A DNA stretch of 20,534 nt, taken from a virus. Of the stretch, positions 4,174 through 20,534 are shown piece after piece (the first letter of the stretch is position 1; the number at the start of each line of letters is the position of its first letter). Both the position numbers and the translations under genes were made by a program. The notes under the pieces are model-generated. The model did not search any database, was not told the DNA's origin, and worked only from the letters and a program-made list of their open reading frames with translations. Location of the stretch: positions 1 to 20,534 of IMG/VR virus record IMGVR_UViG_3300049215_000274; one strand, given 5' to 3'.

Positions 4174-5246
4174 GAGATACTACCGGTCCACACTGAGGAA
4201 CCGCCCTTCGGCTTCTTGGCCTTGGGCGGTGCCGGCGAGAAGGCCTCGGGCGGCGCCACCAGCAGGTCTGTGCGGCGGCCGTCCTTGTCATCCAGCAGGA
4301 ACGTCACGCCGCCCACCAGAAGCTGCTGATCGATCTCCAGCCATGGGCAGGTGACCGGCACCATCTGGTTGACCTGCCAGAGCGAACCATCCGGCTGGCG
4401 ATAGCCCTGCACGGTCAAGGTCGCCTGTGTCGCCTCGCCGAAATTGTGAGCCGCGCGCCATTTCGCGCGAAGCTTGGCGCGCGCGGTGTCGGCCGGGTCC
4501 TGCGCCATTTCAGCAAAGCGCCGGAAGCGCGGGCAACTAGCGTCCTTGGCCTTGGCGATGATCTCGAGCTGGCTGTCCTGGCCGTCGAAGGCTAGGGGCG
4601 CCTGGGCATAGACGGCATATTCCGAGAAGAGGTTGTCGGCCCGGAGCTGGGCCCGGCCGGCTTTGACGTTTTGTCCCTGGACGAGCGCGCCCGCAGTGCC
4701 TGCCGAGCCAGCCTGGGCAAGGATGAGATTTCCCTTTTCATCATCGAACGCCAGAACGCCGCGCAGGCCGCACAGCTTTTCCAGGAATTCAAAGGCGGTC
4801 TCGCATTTCTCGATGGTGGCGTTCGGGAAGGGATCACCCAGATCCGTACCCTTGGCCACCACCACATTGACACCAAACGGTCCGCAGATCGCTTTCGCGA
4901 TCCGGTCCAGCTTGTAGTTGTTGAACTGGCCGCCCGAAATGTCGGGCATGCAATCCACAATATCCGCTGTCTTGCTGCGCCCGCCGATGCGGACTGTGTG
5001 GCTGGTGGCATCGAAGCCTGGACCATAATGGTCGACATATCCCGTCAGGATCGTGTCGCCGCCGATCGCCAGCGTGCAGGCATCGAAGCGCTTGATCTGC
5101 CACGGCTGATCCTGTCCGGCCCAGCGTTCGGTGACCGAAATCTCAAAGTCGGCTGCGCAATGGCGCAGGTCCCGCTGCACGCTGATCTCTTTCCAGCCCT
5201 CATAGGTCTGGCCATTGATGGTCAGCGTAAGCTTGTCATCCGCCAT
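4170..5246 (-). CDS. Baseplate hub protein, Mu gpP / P2 gpD (late control D) family
   Basis: This 358-residue hub protein should form the trimeric ring between tail tube and central spike. The N-terminus LTLTINGQTYEGWKEISVQRDLRHCAADFEISVTERW is typical of Mu gpP relatives, as are ILTGYVDHYGPGFDATSHTVRIGGRSKTADIVDCMP and the helix ETAFEFLEKLCGLRGVLAFDDEKGNLIL. The C-terminal domain includes YRQPDGSLWQVNQMVPVTCPWLEID, the common 'g.W..n..v.v..p.l.i' pattern. The last 25 residues are a Lys/Pro-rich tail (PAPPKAKKPKGGSS). The gene lies 14 nt after the DNA-circularisation gene and overlaps the spike gene, so hub and spike are translated from adjoining frames. No strong ribosome site is visible; the ATG was chosen by homology of the N-terminus. 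Confidence 0.9.
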   Translation of the reverse strand: MADDKLTLTINGQTYEGWKEISVQRDLRHCAADFEISVTERWAGQDQPWQIKRFDACTLAIGGDTILTGYVDHYGPGFDATSHTVRIGGRSKTADIVDCMPDISGGQFNNYKLDRIAKAICGPFGVNVVVAKGTDLGDPFPNATIEKCETAFEFLEKLCGLRGVLAFDDEKGNLILAQAGSAGTAGALVQGQNVKAGRAQLRADNLFSEYAVYAQAPLAFDGQDSQLEIIAKAKDASCPRFRRFAEMAQDPADTARAKLRAKWRAAHNFGEATQATLTVQGYRQPDGSLWQVNQMVPVTCPWLEIDQQLLVGGVTFLLDDKDGRRTDLLVAPPEAFSPAPPKAKKPKGGSSVWTGSIS

Positions 5247-5260
5247 GGCTCGTTGGTCTT

Positions 5261-6484
5261 TCAGGCCGCCAGCGCTTCTATCTTCATCGGCATAAACAGC
5301 GGATGCGGGGCGGCGTTGCGCGCCACCAGCTCGGGGCCGCGGCTGCCGTCCTGGTAGATGCGTTGCGCCAGCGCCACCGCCGGCAGGCTGGCGCCCAGTT
5401 GGTAGGTCAGGAGCAGCGGAAGCTGCTGGGCGCGGGCCGTCAGGTCGGTAGAGGATGCCCGCATGACATTCATCCAGCCGCCATAGGCGATATCATCGCC
5501 CATATCGGCGGCGCGCGTCGCCTGGGCGTCGATCAGGTCGGTCAGCTGGGCCCGCGCCGTCTCGGCATCGGCCGCGCTGGCGAATTCGGTTTGCGCGTAG
5601 ACCTGCGCCAGCGCCGCCACGGCGCTGCCTTGGACCAGTGCGACCAGCGCAGACTGGTCGGCAGCCTGTTTCAGCCGCTGCGGCGTGGTGCCAGCGACAG
5701 GCTCGAGATTGCTGCCCCAGACCGCGAAAGAGGCCAGCCCATAACTGGGATCGGTGACCGGCGGCAGGCCACGCGAAGAGAGGGTGGGATCGTCCACCGG
5801 CAGGATGTCGGAGACGGCGGCGGCATAGGCCGAGAAGAACGCGGGCACGGCCTGCCCCAGCTCTTCCGGATCATCACCTGCGGCCACCACCGCATCGAAG
5901 ACGTCGGTCAGGAGGCCAATTGGCAGGCTGGGCAACCCGACCAGCGCACCGAGATCTTCGACCAGGGCGGAAATGTTGCCCGCCAGCGCATCGCGGATGA
6001 AGCCCTCGAGGCCATCCAGCGAGAACTGGCTGCTGAAATCGTCGCCCAGCACGCCATATTGATCGTCGGCCTCGTCCCAGGCCTGGGTGTCGGTGCTGCC
6101 GCTGGACGTCGGCGAGGGCTGGGTGCCGGCTTCGATGAAGGTTATCTCGAAGAAGGCCATGCGGCCTTCCCGCGTGGTCTCCGTGATCCGATAGACCGGG
6201 CAACCAACAGTCAGGTTGCCTTTATAGGGATGTGCGAAGGTGCCGGACCCTTCGGCATCCAGCGCCTGTTCCAGTGCGTCGCGGGCGGAGAAATAGTCAT
6301 CGCCCATGACATAAGCACGGACGTTATGTACCTTCGCCCGTTTGCCAATGTCTTCGAGAAAATTGTCTTCGCGAAGTGGGTATTCGTGGTTGGCCAGTCG
6401 CCGGCCGCCTTCGCGGCTCACATCTTCATAGAAGAACGGAACGCCCCGGAAGGATGCCGGGAGCAGATTGTCTTTCCAACTCAT
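5261..6484 (-). CDS. DNA circularisation/tail protein, Mu gpN family
   Basis: This 407-residue protein belongs to the Mu gpN 'DNA circulation' family. In Mu it was first described as protecting or circularising infecting DNA and it is now regarded as a baseplate/tail component. The N-terminal ~95 residues carry the conserved domain: W-KDNLLPASFRGVPFFYED...GGRRLANHEYPLREDNFLEDIGKRA..., then YFSARDALEQALDAEGSGTFAHPYKGNLTV. The remainder is mostly helical and Ala/Leu-rich, with an acidic linker at about 130-160 and a C-terminal domain ending MKIEALAA. Its ATG overlaps the stop of the tape measure gene by 4 nt. The order tape measure-N-P-gp45 matches Mu. Confidence 0.9.
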   Translation of the reverse strand: MSWKDNLLPASFRGVPFFYEDVSREGGRRLANHEYPLREDNFLEDIGKRAKVHNVRAYVMGDDYFSARDALEQALDAEGSGTFAHPYKGNLTVGCPVYRITETTREGRMAFFEITFIEAGTQPSPTSSGSTDTQAWDEADDQYGVLGDDFSSQFSLDGLEGFIRDALAGNISALVEDLGALVGLPSLPIGLLTDVFDAVVAAGDDPEELGQAVPAFFSAYAAAVSDILPVDDPTLSSRGLPPVTDPSYGLASFAVWGSNLEPVAGTTPQRLKQAADQSALVALVQGSAVAALAQVYAQTEFASAADAETARAQLTDLIDAQATRAADMGDDIAYGGWMNVMRASSTDLTARAQQLPLLLTYQLGASLPAVALAQRIYQDGSRGPELVARNAAPHPLFMPMKIEALAA

Positions 6485-8352
6485 GAGTGGCTGAAGCTCT
6501 TGCCGACTTTGAGGTTTAGACCGCGACCGCGAACATCGGTGCTGGTCGTGGCGCCGCGCGGAAGACCTGTCAGATTGACGTTCAAGTCCACCTGGCCGCC
6601 TGGCCCAGCCAGAGCCGTGGCGCCCGGGCGCGTCATCAGCCGCTCGCGGGCCAGCCGGTCATCGCGGCCGACATCATGGAGCTGCTGGAGGCTCTTACCG
6701 AGCGCGGCGGCATCGGAGATCACAGGCAACTGCAGCGCGATCGCGCCGACATAAGCGAATGCCCCGCCCAGCGCCTTGTTGAAGGCGGCGCGGTTCGCCG
6801 CGGCGGCGGCCGCGCGCGCACCGCTCATGCGGGCATCGTGATCTTTCTCTGCCGAAGTGCGCCGATCGCCGCGGCGACTATCCATGCGGTGCCAGAAGGC
6901 CGAAATGGCGTCCAAAACCGGCTTGATCCTGCTCCAGATGGCGTCGATTTCGTGCAGAATTCCGCCCCAAAGGTCCGAAAACCACAGTTTTACTGGCTGC
7001 CACACAGCCTTGATCTTTTCCCAGATGCCCTGGAAGAAGCGCGCGATCGGAGCCCAATGTTCGTAAATTTCATATACGACGGCCGCCAAAGCGCCAACCG
7101 CAAGGATCACAACGCCTATAGGATTGGCATCCATCGCCAGATCCAGGGCCGCCATGGCCGGAATGGCGAGCCGGATGCCGGTCACCAGATCGGCGAAGAA
7201 GCCTGCGACCCCTGTCGCAGCCAGAATGCCCATGCGGACGGCCGCGACGCCGAACTGAAAGGCCAGGCGCCCCAGCGCCACTGCGGCCTCGATCGCGCTT
7301 TTCACGATGGGCCCGAAGATCAGCGCCGCGCCGGCGATAAGCAGGCCCTTGGCGCCGATAATGTCGGCCAGACCCTTGAAGCCAGACCAGACAAAACGGA
7401 TGACCTCACCGATCCCCTTCCAGTCCACCGCTTTCAGGCCGTCACCGACCTGTTTCACATAGGCATTGGCCTTCTGGCCAATCATCTCCCGGTTCTGGAC
7501 GATCCATTCCCGCAGCGGGACCAGCATATCCATCATGGCGGGAGTGATCGCAGAGCCGATGGTCAGCGCCAGCCCTTCGCCGGCGCCGCTCAGCCGCTTC
7601 CAGTTATCGGCCGTCTCCTGCGCCTCCTTCGCGCGTTCGGGCGTCCATTTGCCATAAAAGCGCTCGAACTCGTCGCCTAGCTCCCGCAGCTCTGTTTTGG
7701 TCTTGAGCAGCACCGGGATCATGCCGGCGCCCATGCGCTGCCCGAAGGCGGTGGCCACAACGCCCGCTTTCATGAAGGGGCTCTGCGCCTTCTGATAGGC
7801 ATCGGCGACCGCGCCGAGGGCATCCTCGACATTGTGGATGTGCTTGCGCCAGCCCGCGCCTTCGAATTTGGTGAGCATGGCGTCCATGTCTTTGTTTTTG
7901 CCACGCATTGCCTTGAAGAGATTGGCATTAAGCCGCTCGATGCCCTTGTCGAAGACGGCCGGGTCCACATCCTCGAGCTTGGCGGCATAATGCAGGCGCG
8001 CCAGCACCGGAATATCGACACCGGTCTTTTCGGAGGAATGAACAAGCGCCTCGCCGAACTCGGCGGCCTTCTTGTTGATCTCGAGCAGGCCTTCTGCCGA
8101 AGCAATGCCACCGATCAGCGCCAGAGGACCGAGCAATGCGCCAAGCTCGCGGCCGAGCGCTCCGACCTTTTCGACCGCCACGGTGGCCTGTTCGCCCAGT
8201 GCGACGATGCCGGTCTCTTCCGCCACCGCGGCGACCGCCGCACCCACCGCCGTGATCGGGGCGATCATGCTGTAGATGTCGGCATTGATCTTGTGAATTG
8301 GGGCGGATGCCCGGTTCACAACCTCAATGATGGCGCGGAAGGTCTGGTCCAA
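6481..8352 (-). CDS. Tail tape measure protein (Mu gp42-like)
   Basis: This 623-residue protein sets tail length and is probably ejected with the DNA. The first 130 residues are helical with a hydrophobic patch (GALLGPLALIGGIASAEG, about 71-88). A long helical middle follows, then a cluster of hydrophobic segments at about 330-430, including NPIGVVILAVGALAAVVYEI followed by aromatic repeats (W-APIARFFQGIW, IKAVWQPVKLWF). This pattern is typical of tape measure proteins. The C-terminus has a basic stretch and GGQVDLNVNLTGLP. The start is TTG at 8352, preceded by AGGA at 7 nt spacing; it lies 3 nt after the stop of the frameshifted chaperone product. The length predicts a tail of roughly 90 nm by the usual per-residue rule (inference). 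Confidence 0.92.
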   Translation of the reverse strand: MDQTFRAIIEVVNRASAPIHKINADIYSMIAPITAVGAAVAAVAEETGIVALGEQATVAVEKVGALGRELGALLGPLALIGGIASAEGLLEINKKAAEFGEALVHSSEKTGVDIPVLARLHYAAKLEDVDPAVFDKGIERLNANLFKAMRGKNKDMDAMLTKFEGAGWRKHIHNVEDALGAVADAYQKAQSPFMKAGVVATAFGQRMGAGMIPVLLKTKTELRELGDEFERFYGKWTPERAKEAQETADNWKRLSGAGEGLALTIGSAITPAMMDMLVPLREWIVQNREMIGQKANAYVKQVGDGLKAVDWKGIGEVIRFVWSGFKGLADIIGAKGLLIAGAALIFGPIVKSAIEAAVALGRLAFQFGVAAVRMGILAATGVAGFFADLVTGIRLAIPAMAALDLAMDANPIGVVILAVGALAAVVYEIYEHWAPIARFFQGIWEKIKAVWQPVKLWFSDLWGGILHEIDAIWSRIKPVLDAISAFWHRMDSRRGDRRTSAEKDHDARMSGARAAAAAANRAAFNKALGGAFAYVGAIALQLPVISDAAALGKSLQQLHDVGRDDRLARERLMTRPGATALAGPGGQVDLNVNLTGLPRGATTSTDVRGRGLNLKVGKSFSHS

Positions 8353-8355
8353 GGG

Positions 8356-8813
8356 TCAATCCTGGGGCGTTTCGGCTTCAATGATTTTATGAGCCGTTCG
8401 GAGAGCTATAAGCAGTTGCGGAAAGGTCAGGCGGAAAACGCTCAACCCACCGCCATAAAACCGCGCTAGCTCGAAGTATCTTCGGATGAGTTCGTCTGGG
8501 TCTGCCCCAACCCGCGAAAAAAACCAGCCACAACCCCAACCGCCTTCATCATGTCGATGGGAGCCATCTGTTTCACCGTCGAAAGAGGGACATCGGCCAA
8601 TCGGACGATATATTGTCCGGTTATGGCGAAGTCGAAGTGCGTGTGCCCCTGCATATCGGGAGCGAAATTCGGTGACCCAATCTCGAGAAGATCCTCGCCA
8701 CTCGGATACCGGAATTCGAGATAGGTGATTTCCTTTCCGTGTGCCTTTATCGGTTTCTCAAGCGGAAGCTTGATCTTGTCCCCCAACCTCATTTTTTCCC
8801 CCGGTTTGGTCAT
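8356..8813 (-). CDS. Tail assembly chaperone, long frameshift product (E+E' type)
   Basis: This 152-residue product is predicted to arise from the same start as the 115-residue chaperone. The ribosome reads 99 codons to F99, slips back one base on the T-TTT-TTT run at 8517-8523, and reads 53 more codons to TGA at 8356-8358. The extension begins SRVGADPDELIRRYFELARF and continues YGGGLSVFRLTFPQLLIAL. It is protein-like, stays open for 53 codons and ends 3 nt before the tape measure start. P2, lambda and Mu relatives use such a -1 shift to make a minor extended chaperone that binds the tape measure protein during tail assembly. The zero frame stops earlier, at 8466. The signal is seen directly; slippage efficiency is unknown. 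Confidence 0.85.
8466..8813 (-). CDS. Tail assembly chaperone, short zero-frame product (Mu gp41 / P2 gpE type)
   Basis: This 115-residue protein is the major product of the chaperone gene. It keeps the tape measure protein soluble while the tube polymerises around it and is not expected in the virion. The pattern is that of the P2 gpE/Mu gp41 family: a short strand-rich N-terminus (KIKLPLEKPIKAHGKEITYLEFRYPSGEDLLEIG) followed by a helical half (VRLADVPLSTVKQMAPIDMMKAVGVVAGFFRGL). The last 16 residues after the slippery run are Gln/Ser/Asn-rich with no visible fold. That suits a region whose bases also encode the -1 extension. The ATG overlaps the stop of the tail tube gene by 1 nt. Confidence 0.9.
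   Translation of the reverse strand: MTKPGEKMRLGDKIKLPLEKPIKAHGKEITYLEFRYPSGEDLLEIGSPNFAPDMQGHTHFDFAITGQYIVRLADVPLSTVKQMAPIDMMKAVGVVAGFFRGLGQTQTNSSEDTSS
8517..8523 (-). promoter_or_regulatory. Programmed -1 frameshift slippery heptamer (T TTT TTT)
   Basis: On the mRNA strand the sequence GGT TTT TTT CGC is in the zero frame, giving a perfect X-XXY-YYZ heptamer (T TTT TTT) on which both Phe tRNAs can re-pair after a one-base slip. P2 uses the close variant T TTT TTG at the equivalent place. A small downstream hairpin is possible: TTGGG (8510-8506) pairs with CCCAG (8500-8496), but it is weak and starts only about 6 nt after the run. Confidence 0.8.
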
Positions 8814-9181
8814 TAGACGACCAGCTCCTGCATATCGATGCCGCGGAATTCGACATCATAGCTGCCCTCTTCCGTGTTCACGCTGACCTCGCCTTCCAGC
8901 CAGGCGCTGGACAGGATCCATGTCTTGCCGTTGTTGCACTCCAGCGTGATGTTGCTGTCTTCCAGGTCCTGCAGCTGCTGGACCGAGACACCACCCAGAT
9001 CGGTGATGGTCATTTTGAAGCCGGGCGCCAGCGGCATTTCGGAAAAGCCGTGCACGCTGTCCTGCCCGGTGATGGCGGTTTTCTTCGAGGTCATGGGCAT
9101 GACTTCCGCCTTGCCCTTGAGGGTCCACTGGGCCCCATCGATCTTCAAATAGGCGGTACCGCCGACGCGCTGTGCAGCCAT
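8813..9181 (-). CDS. Tail tube protein (Mu gpM family)
   Basis: This 122-residue protein forms the inner tube of the contractile tail. The family pattern is clear: VGGTAYLKIDGAQWTLKGKAEVMPMTSKKTAITGQDSVHGFSEMPLAPGFKMTITDLGGVSVQQLQDLEDSNITLECNNGKTW, then a C-terminal strand pair ending VEFRGIDMQELVV. Length is close to Mu gpM. The ATG has an AGGAG ribosome site at 9 nt and lies 38 nt after the sheath stop. Sheath directly followed by tube is universal in Mu- and P2-type tails, and the chaperone gene follows directly. Confidence 0.94.
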   Translation of the reverse strand: MAAQRVGGTAYLKIDGAQWTLKGKAEVMPMTSKKTAITGQDSVHGFSEMPLAPGFKMTITDLGGVSVQQLQDLEDSNITLECNNGKTWILSSAWLEGEVSVNTEEGSYDVEFRGIDMQELVV

Positions 9182-9219: not shown

Positions 9220-10779
9220 TTACTGCTGCGCGGCTTGCGCGGAGGCGTCGGAAAGGAAGAAGTTGACCAGCACGGCCAAAACGCGCAGGCCGCTGACCAG
9301 GATGGGGTCGAGCAGCATGTCGACACGGCTGGCATCGTTGGCGTTGCGCTGCACGATCAGGCCTGCGGCGAAGGTCTTGGTGTCTTCCACCAGGCCGGCC
9401 TGGACCTGCCGGGCATAGGTGGCGATGCAGACACCCTTGATGCCATTGGGCGTGGTGATGGGCTGATCGGCCTGGCCCTTCGTGAAGGTCGTTCCGGCGC
9501 CAAAGCTGACGCCATCATCGGCCAGCTTGGCGCGCGGAAAGGCGATGCCCAGCGCGTCCTTCTGCTGCCGAATGAACGTCATCAGGCTGTAGAGGGTTTC
9601 GGTGTCCAGCAGGGACAGATCGGAGACGCCGGCCGGGTTCTTCTGATAGGTGGTGACCGCGCGCTTGATGGTGCAGGTGCCGTCGGCATTGTAGCCCATC
9701 AGCGCCATGCCGCTGGACAGCAGCGTGTTCTGGGTCGCCCAGGTATAGCGGCCGGTCTTCGGCGGCGCCAAAAGACCGGGAACGTTCAGGGTCTGCAGCG
9801 GGCGCGCCGGATCGGCACGCAGACTGTCGGCCGCGGCACCCATATAGGCGGCCGCGACATCCCAGGGCGCGGGCGGCGAGGGCTCATAGGACACGCAGGT
9901 GACGTGGGGGTCATTGCGGGTGATGCCGAAGGCGATGTTGGTGGCGCCGGTTGCGTCCGCATCCATCTTTGCCGACCAGACATGGCCATAGTCCTGCCGG
10001 TTGTAGGACCAGCGGCCGGTATCGTTGGCCATCAAGGTCTTCATGGCGTTGAGCTGGGTCGCCGTCGACCACGGAATGGCGATGAAATCATAGTTGGTAT
10101 CGCCAAGGATCGCGTCCAGGCCGGTGAGATCGGGATCGGTGGCGCCGGCCGCCATGGCGGTGACGGCGGCCGTGATGCCGGCGGGCGTGGCTTCACCACC
10201 CTGGGCGCCGAAATAGTTGAGGCGGATGTCGATGCTATTGCCCTGCGTTCCCTTGTTCTTGGCCGTCAGGTTCACCTGGGCCTGGATGACACCGTCCACC
10301 GCGGCCGTGACCGGCAAGGTGACGCCATTCGGACTTGCCCAGGCCGTGATGGCTGCCACCACGGCGGTGGCGAGCTGGGCCGCGGTCATGCCCGCGGTCA
10401 CGGCCACCGGTACCGCGCGGCCGGCGATGTAAAGCGCGAGGCTTCCAGCGGCCGTGGCAGGACCGGTGAACAGGATCTGACCAGCCGCCGCGGCCGCGCC
10501 GCCAGCGTCGGCCAGCGGGAGGACATAGAGCGCGCCATTCGGATCGGCGGCGAAATATTTCTCCACCATCGCAGCGGCGATCGAGCCAGCACCGAAGAGC
10601 GCGACGGCCTGGGCGACATTGGGCACCCAGACTGGGACGGCGGGCTGCACGGTAATGGTGTTAGCGATGATAAGCGAGTTCTGCACTTCCAAGCTGCCCG
10701 CGTTCCCGGCGCCAACTTCAAAATAGGAGAAGGGCACCTTGACGTTGGCCGGAATGGTCTTGAAGCCGATGGCGGGCAT
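9220..10779 (-). CDS. Contractile tail sheath protein (Mu gpL family)
   Basis: This 519-residue protein is the sheath subunit whose contraction drives tube penetration. It starts MPAIGFKTIPANVKVPFSYFEV, matching the Mu-type start ('f..iP.n.rvP.fy.E.d'). Residues about 102-188 form the inserted outer domain (ILFTGPATAAGSLALYIAGR... to NLTAKNKGTQGNSIDIRLNY). The C-terminal half is the conserved core: DAILGDTNYDFIAIPWSTATQLNAM, then KRAVTTYQKNPAGVSDLSLLDTETLYSL, and finally DPILVSGLRVLAVLVNFFL. The ATG has a strong AGGAG site at 8 nt. It follows the tail-terminator-like gene by 30 nt and begins the Mu-type tail module. Confidence 0.95.
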   Translation of the reverse strand: MPAIGFKTIPANVKVPFSYFEVGAGNAGSLEVQNSLIIANTITVQPAVPVWVPNVAQAVALFGAGSIAAAMVEKYFAADPNGALYVLPLADAGGAAAAAGQILFTGPATAAGSLALYIAGRAVPVAVTAGMTAAQLATAVVAAITAWASPNGVTLPVTAAVDGVIQAQVNLTAKNKGTQGNSIDIRLNYFGAQGGEATPAGITAAVTAMAAGATDPDLTGLDAILGDTNYDFIAIPWSTATQLNAMKTLMANDTGRWSYNRQDYGHVWSAKMDADATGATNIAFGITRNDPHVTCVSYEPSPPAPWDVAAAYMGAAADSLRADPARPLQTLNVPGLLAPPKTGRYTWATQNTLLSSGMALMGYNADGTCTIKRAVTTYQKNPAGVSDLSLLDTETLYSLMTFIRQQKDALGIAFPRAKLADDGVSFGAGTTFTKGQADQPITTPNGIKGVCIATYARQVQAGLVEDTKTFAAGLIVQRNANDASRVDMLLDPILVSGLRVLAVLVNFFLSDASAQAAQQ

Positions 10780-14206: not shown

Positions 14207-14854
14207 TTACTGTTTCTTGCTGGTGGCCTTGGCCCGGTCCTGGGCAGCCGCCAGAAGCTCCTGATCCGGCGACTTCGCGCCCGGCTTGACGCCGCTCTGA
14301 CCAATGTCATAGCGCGGCATTGAGACCAGGGCCTCGGCGAGCGGATTGGTGTCGCTTTCCGGAGCCGTGGCGGACAAGACCTTGATGACCTTGGAGGCCT
14401 TCATGTTGCTGGTGACGTCGAAAGCCAGTTCGCAGGCCAATGGGACACGACCCACGGCATGCTCGCTGGAGAAGATCGCGGCGCAGCGGCGACGCTCCAT
14501 GCGGGTGGCGGCGGCGAGTGCGGCGCCATGGCCAGCAGCCTGCGCCTTCTTCACCTCTTCCTCGTCGCCCTCGGGATCGTCGTCATCGTCATCGTCATCG
14601 TCGTCTTCGCCACGATGGCATTCCTCGTCCGCGGCGGGCGCAGCAACTGCAGGGGCTGGGGCCGCGGGGGTGGCAGCTTCGGCAGCGGGCGCGGCGGCAG
14701 AGGCCGTAGGCGCCTCAGCCGCGGAGGCGGCGGGCGCAGCAGCTTCCGCAGCCGGCGTCGCTTCCGTCGGCGCCGCAGGCTTGCGCGGGATGCTGCTGAG
14801 ATGAAGGAAAGAGGCGGGAGCGGCCGTGGATTTCAGCCGATTGCGAACGGTCAT
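14207..14854 (-). CDS. Probable capsid scaffold protein (lambda Nu3-like role)
   Basis: This 215-residue protein has three parts: a short N-terminus, an Ala/Pro/Glu-rich low-complexity region (about 25-75) followed by ten aspartates (84-93) and an acidic EGDEEE, and a helical C-terminal domain. In that domain, RMERRRCAAIFSSEHAVGRVPLACELAFDVTSNMKASKVIKVLSATAP matches the C-terminal scaffold-like region found after many phage S49 proteases ('R...I..s..a.Gr..lA..lAf.t....e.A...L'). The basic C-terminus (DRAKATSKKQ) would suit binding to capsid subunits. In lambda the scaffold Nu3 is nested in the protease gene; here it is a separate gene starting 12 nt after the protease stop, with an AGGAG site. 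Function is inferred from position and composition. Confidence 0.72.
   Translation of the reverse strand: MTVRNRLKSTAAPASFLHLSSIPRKPAAPTEATPAAEAAAPAASAAEAPTASAAAPAAEAATPAAPAPAVAAPAADEECHRGEDDDDDDDDDDPEGDEEEVKKAQAAGHGAALAAATRMERRRCAAIFSSEHAVGRVPLACELAFDVTSNMKASKVIKVLSATAPESDTNPLAEALVSMPRYDIGQSGVKPGAKSPDQELLAAAQDRAKATSKKQ
14576..14605 (-). repeat. GAC/GAT trinucleotide run encoding ten aspartates
   Basis: Ten consecutive GAC or GAT codons lie inside the scaffold gene, giving a simple trinucleotide tract of 30 bp. Slippage in such tracts changes length in steps of three and leaves the frame intact. Confidence 0.9.
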
Positions 14855-20480: not shown

Positions 20481-20534
20481 GTGGAACGTGTTTTTTTGGG
20501 CCTGACAGACTTAAAGGCCGTGGTGCGAATTGCC
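20481..20534. other. Right-edge stretch without a recognised gene
   Basis: This 54-bp stretch precedes the terminase genes. It contains seven T (20491-20497) next to an imperfect dyad GGCCT (20499-20503) / AGGCC (20515-20519) with an 11-nt loop. The order of T run and dyad does not make a terminator on either strand. In lambda the cos site lies upstream of nu1, so a packaging site may lie here or beyond the edge, but I cannot identify one. Confidence 0.3.

Follow-up and report, generated by a model that had tools for sequence, protein, structure and literature searches.

A predicted programmed -1 frameshift at an all-T heptamer in the tail assembly chaperone gene of a Mu-like contractile-tail phage

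Frameshifting in tail assembly chaperone genes is already well known in tailed phages. In phage P2, a -1 frameshift at T TTT TTG is annotated for the pair E / E+E'. The record of phage Mu lists the frameshift product of the gene for gp41 as verified, with a -2 shift (PMID 15469818). In phage lambda, a low-level -1 shift generates two chaperone forms, G and GT, in a fixed ratio; the tape measure protein is bound by the domain that both have in common, and tube subunits are recruited by the extended form (PMC5009743). The same principle is proposed here for a gene of a phage represented in IMG/VR.

The DNA analyzed, hereafter the window, spans the full 20,534 bases of a virus record in IMG/VR. 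On its minus strand, genes for the head (terminase, portal, maturation protease, and major head protein) come first, and after them those of a contractile-tail module (sheath, tube, chaperone, tape measure, and baseplate hub and wedge proteins). A protein with long Ala/Pro/Glu stretches and an Asp run, perhaps part of the scaffold, is encoded on the same strand at 14207-14854, where it separates the maturation protease gene from the head genes. In the tail module, the sheath gene (9220-10779; phrog_165, E 2.6e-145) precedes the tail tube gene (8813-9181; Pfam PF10618 Tail_tube, E 1.3e-33), the stop of which overlaps the start of the 115-aa 0-frame chaperone gene (8813-8466) in the sequence TAATG. 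The tape measure gene (6481-8352; 623 aa; phrog_8125, E 2.5e-20, and other tape-measure families) begins with a TTG, 113 nt from the chaperone stop. The product of 8813-8466, of the gpE / gpG / SfV orf13 type, matched Pfam PF10109 Phage_TAC_7 (41.8 bits versus a cut-off of 25) and phrog_166 (E 4e-11). The Pfam match, along with the tail tube and tape measure genes on either side, confirmed the chaperone identity assigned earlier from the sequence alone.

The chaperone codons GGT TTT TTT CGC contain the heptamer T TTT TTT in X XXY YYZ phase at 8523-8517, on the minus strand and 16 codons ahead of the 0-frame stop. This T7 is the sole run of at least six T on the coding strand of the window; the only other 7-base homopolymer on that strand is a seven-A run near the window end (20491-20497, minus strand). 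Past the slip site, the -1 frame reads SRVGADPDELIRRYFELARFYGGGLSVFRLTFPQLLIALRTAHKIIEAETPQD, which corresponds to 53 codons and ends with a TGA (8358-8356) just ahead of the tape-measure TTG at 8352. This extension (8517-8356) would be the equivalent of E' or of the lambda T domain, and its end harbors an AGGA 7 nt upstream of the TTG. The predicted fusion comprises 99 + 53 = 152 aa, and its junction peptide is ...VVAGFFSRVGADPDELIR. The sequence-only reading had described the heptamer and its phase, the 53-codon open frame with a stop at 8356, the 113-bp gap, and the 152-aa product; checked or recomputed on the sequence, all of these agreed.

This arrangement very probably reflects a programmed -1 ribosomal frameshift in the tail assembly chaperone gene. 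Most ribosomes would read GGT TTT TTT CGC and produce the 115-aa chaperone. We infer that in this phage a minority slips back one base with two tRNA-Phe on T TTT TTT and reads TCG CGG onward in the -1 frame, which would result in the 152-aa fusion ending just before the tape measure gene. If the two forms act as lambda gpG/gpGT and P2 gpE/E+E' do, the domain that they share would coat the tape measure protein, and the long form, the less abundant of the two, would recruit subunits of the tail tube.

To estimate the contribution of chance, codons were shuffled inside the chaperone gene, and the last 36 codons were scored for in-phase heptamers. An in-phase T TTT TTT appeared in 0.1% of the shuffles and T TTT TTN in 0.9%, whereas some X XXY YYZ heptamer was present in 20% (last 36 codons, that is, the last third of the gene). 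Random -1 frames of the same composition remained open for at least 50 codons in 14% of cases and had their stop within codons 50-57 in 2.3%. Phe is encoded by TTC in 129 of 156 cases in the nine other genes of the window (83:17 with respect to TTT), and GGT TTT TTT is therefore improbable, at about 0.5% given Gly-Phe-Phe and the usage in these genes. According to these figures, the open -1 frame by itself is weak evidence, and it is the homology of the extension that makes the case strong.

No Pfam or PHROGs model matched the 53-aa extension alone; PF06528 Phage_P2_GpE (E' family) had no match either in the window or with the extension. We therefore built a profile of our own from the extensions of relatives only, leaving out the window, Mu, and P2. 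Among 472 six-frame segments, the -1 segment of the window was the best match (E 1.7e-4; the next had 0.018), and its 53 residues scored 18.6 bits, compared to a maximum of 8.1 in 5000 shuffles. The same profile recognized the Mu frameshift extension (E 1e-5), whereas the match to the P2 extension (E 0.014) was weak and did not surpass that of the top chance segment. The -1 sequence, previously called protein-like from its composition, is thus above all shuffles and homologous to the extension of Mu. Of the comparisons with known extensions, that with Mu gave a match and that with the Pfam model of P2 E' did not. On the other side, the extension of the window diverges in its C-terminal half, with 13-31% identity overall.

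In these relatives, the extensions are under purifying selection in the -1 frame, as computed on pairs of relatives. Beyond the 0-frame stop, the pair L021/L022 showed a dN of 0.03 and a dS of 1.53, with 2/2/19 differences at codon positions 1/2/3, and the corresponding differences in the pair L001/L007 were 9/6/27. In more distant pairs, dS was saturated and less telling.

The relatives were retrieved by two routes. A tblastn search against annotated phages led to SfV-type phages, with 43-45% identity to the orf13 of this group over residues 15-99 and an alignment that stops at the slip site. In IMG/VR, 43 loci were found via the tail tube; a single-protein search with the fusion gave no match there, an alignment proved too divergent to yield search patterns, and the sheath as query gave 0 loci in IMG/VR or GTDB. 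A DNA-level search among phages also gave no match, and no close DNA relative of the window was found. An in-phase T TTT TTN near the chaperone end was present in 13 distinct IMG/VR relatives, in seven phages (SfV, EPP-1, 689R6, AH07, YeP1, BgVeeders33, and PG1), and in P2, in agreement with the conservation expected from the earlier reading; a more distant group of loci is without it. The relatives keep a 0-frame stop a few codons past the slip site, and their -1 extensions, like those of the seven phages and P2, have 42-63 codons and end at or near the tape-measure start. In the seven phages and P2, the extension has 53-63 codons and ends at most 10 nt from that start. In the 13 IMG/VR relatives, it has 42-56 codons and ends at most 17 nt from the called start in 11 of 13, the exceptions being L011 and L033, in which it overlaps the mechanically called first tape-measure start by 46-49 nt.

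The all-T heptamer occurs at the same codon pair and in the same phase in the Yersinia phage YeP1 and in five IMG/VR relatives (L013, L014, L020, L023, and L024), with extensions of 53-56 codons that diverge in sequence; others have T TTT TTC or T TTT TTG at this pair. The difference from the T TTT TTG of P2 pointed out in the sequence-only reading therefore exists, but it is no notable departure, and within this group of relatives all-T heptamers are nothing out of the ordinary. In a literature search that covered few subscription papers, no paper turned up that gives TTTTTTT as the slip site of a tail chaperone, or TTTTTTC for Mu-like phages; with this coverage, the search says nothing on priority.

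Several other loci differed in this region. A 186-aa chaperone, apparently with two chaperone-like repeats and without an X XXY YYZ site, was observed in L026-L030, L032, L035-L044, L046, L047, and L053 (at about 4358-4918 of the full-flank loci). Its sequence GGT TTT CAG GTT CGG is identical in the five loci inspected, and a -1 extension there continues as far as the start of the tape measure gene; slippage in this group may take place at a single codon, T_TTT. Three loci (L049-L051, at about 4351-4660) have a clearly conserved -1 extension (WPELIAELTKFYGWGPREAWSLTL), with G GGT TTC as the slip site in one member and without a standard heptamer in the two others. In Paraburkholderia phage IPK (L002, 2489-2950; record UNVERIFIED), the chaperone Phe-Phe is encoded by TTC TTC, without a heptamer; the -1 frame does contain a similar extension, but it is preceded by stop codons close to where the site is expected.

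The coding strand has no T run longer than the T7, and an RNA polymerase that inserted an extra U there would yield an mRNA from which normal translation gives the same 152-aa protein as the predicted fusion. However, relatives with T TTT TTC or T TTT TTG hold six T only, a pattern that fits in-phase tandem tRNA slippage, and efficient transcriptional slippage in bacteria is documented at stretches of 9 A or T (PMC5009743), compared with seven T here. Polymerase slippage is very unlikely for these reasons, and the counterparts in lambda, P2, and Mu have been described as ribosomal. Homopolymers are, furthermore, prone to sequencing and assembly errors, and one additional T would fuse the two frames into a continuous 152-aa gene. 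The two-frame arrangement nevertheless recurs in independent assemblies and in finished phage genomes, many relatives have TTTTTTC or TTTTTTG, which a miscounted T7 does not explain, and the nearby 0-frame stop is retained throughout; an error of this kind was rejected, as the relatives exclude it in practice.

Between 8757 and 8359 the -1 frame has no stop, which would be compatible with an independent small gene having its own start. This stretch, however, contains neither ATG nor GTG, and its one TTG (8445, for 29 aa) lies behind the conserved motif GADPDELIRRYFELARFY, whereas conservation among the relatives begins close behind the slip site. With no usable start ahead of this motif, we rejected a separate gene as extremely improbable. 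The Mu-like tail, together with the verified -2 shift annotated for Mu, raised the alternative of a -2 shift into the +1 frame. The homologous extension sits in the -1 frame, however, and in the window the extension profile matched nothing in the +1 frame, which stops ahead of the tape measure gene. A -2 shift would hence enter a frame without homology and was discarded as having hardly any probability.

As for the efficiency of the proposed -1 ribosomal shift, a review reports that, in E. coli, ribosomes shift far less readily on U_UUU_UUU than on A_AAA_AAG (PMC5009743), which counts against this mechanism, yet it suits the low rate used by the chaperone system. No pseudoknot-free fold starting 5 nt past the heptamer of the window rose above shuffles (z-scores of 0.17 for 50 nt and -0.37 for 80 nt), the downstream structures examined gave no consistent signal, and there was no clear upstream Shine-Dalgarno stimulator in the window. 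That the T run alone sets the chaperone ratio, through slippage without an RNA stimulator or with a contribution of polymerase slippage, is in our view unlikely.

The result is a sound, ordinary annotation. The gene models of this phage and its relatives are thereby corrected: the apparent gap between chaperone and tape measure encodes the extension of the predicted fusion, which was absent from the annotation in most records checked. The understanding of frameshifting itself is unchanged.

Among the known systems compared, the Shigella phage SfV, with a Mu-like contractile tail, has the same gene order as the window. Over residues 15-99, up to the slip site, its orf13 is 44.7% identical to the window chaperone, and T TTT TTC is located at the same Phe-Phe codons, followed by a -1 extension that also has 53 codons. 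The SfV heptamer ends in C instead of T, the 0-frame stops a few codons past the slip site as opposed to 16 codons in the window, and the extension overlaps the tape-measure start, whereas that of the window ends just before it. In the SfV record, orf13 is annotated alone, without the extension. The order sheath, tube, chaperone, extension, and tape measure is the same in SfV and Mu, and P2 has a corresponding order. P2 E / E+E' resembles the window in position, direction, the T TTT TT core, and a site ahead of the tape measure gene, but its heptamer ends in G and it is too far in sequence for the window to match the E' model PF06528. Mu shares with the window the chaperone position, the homologous C-terminal extension, and the Mu-like tail, whereas its shift is -2 and that of the window would be -1. 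The claim that Mu-like phages use such shifts was hence right about the outcome and wrong about the mechanism in Mu itself. The -2-shift extension of Mu (L054, 1053-1617) is recognizably homologous to the -1 extensions of the SfV-type phages and the IMG/VR relatives, and the extension was thus retained through a change in shift direction. Lambda G / GT has a slippery sequence different from that of the window and a non-contractile tail. The comparison with P2 E/E' and lambda G/GT made in the sequence-only reading holds for the slip site, its phase, and the -1 extension, and on these sequence features the window gene belongs to the known G/GT, E/E' class of programmed -1 frameshifts, in a phage with a predicted Mu-like contractile tail.
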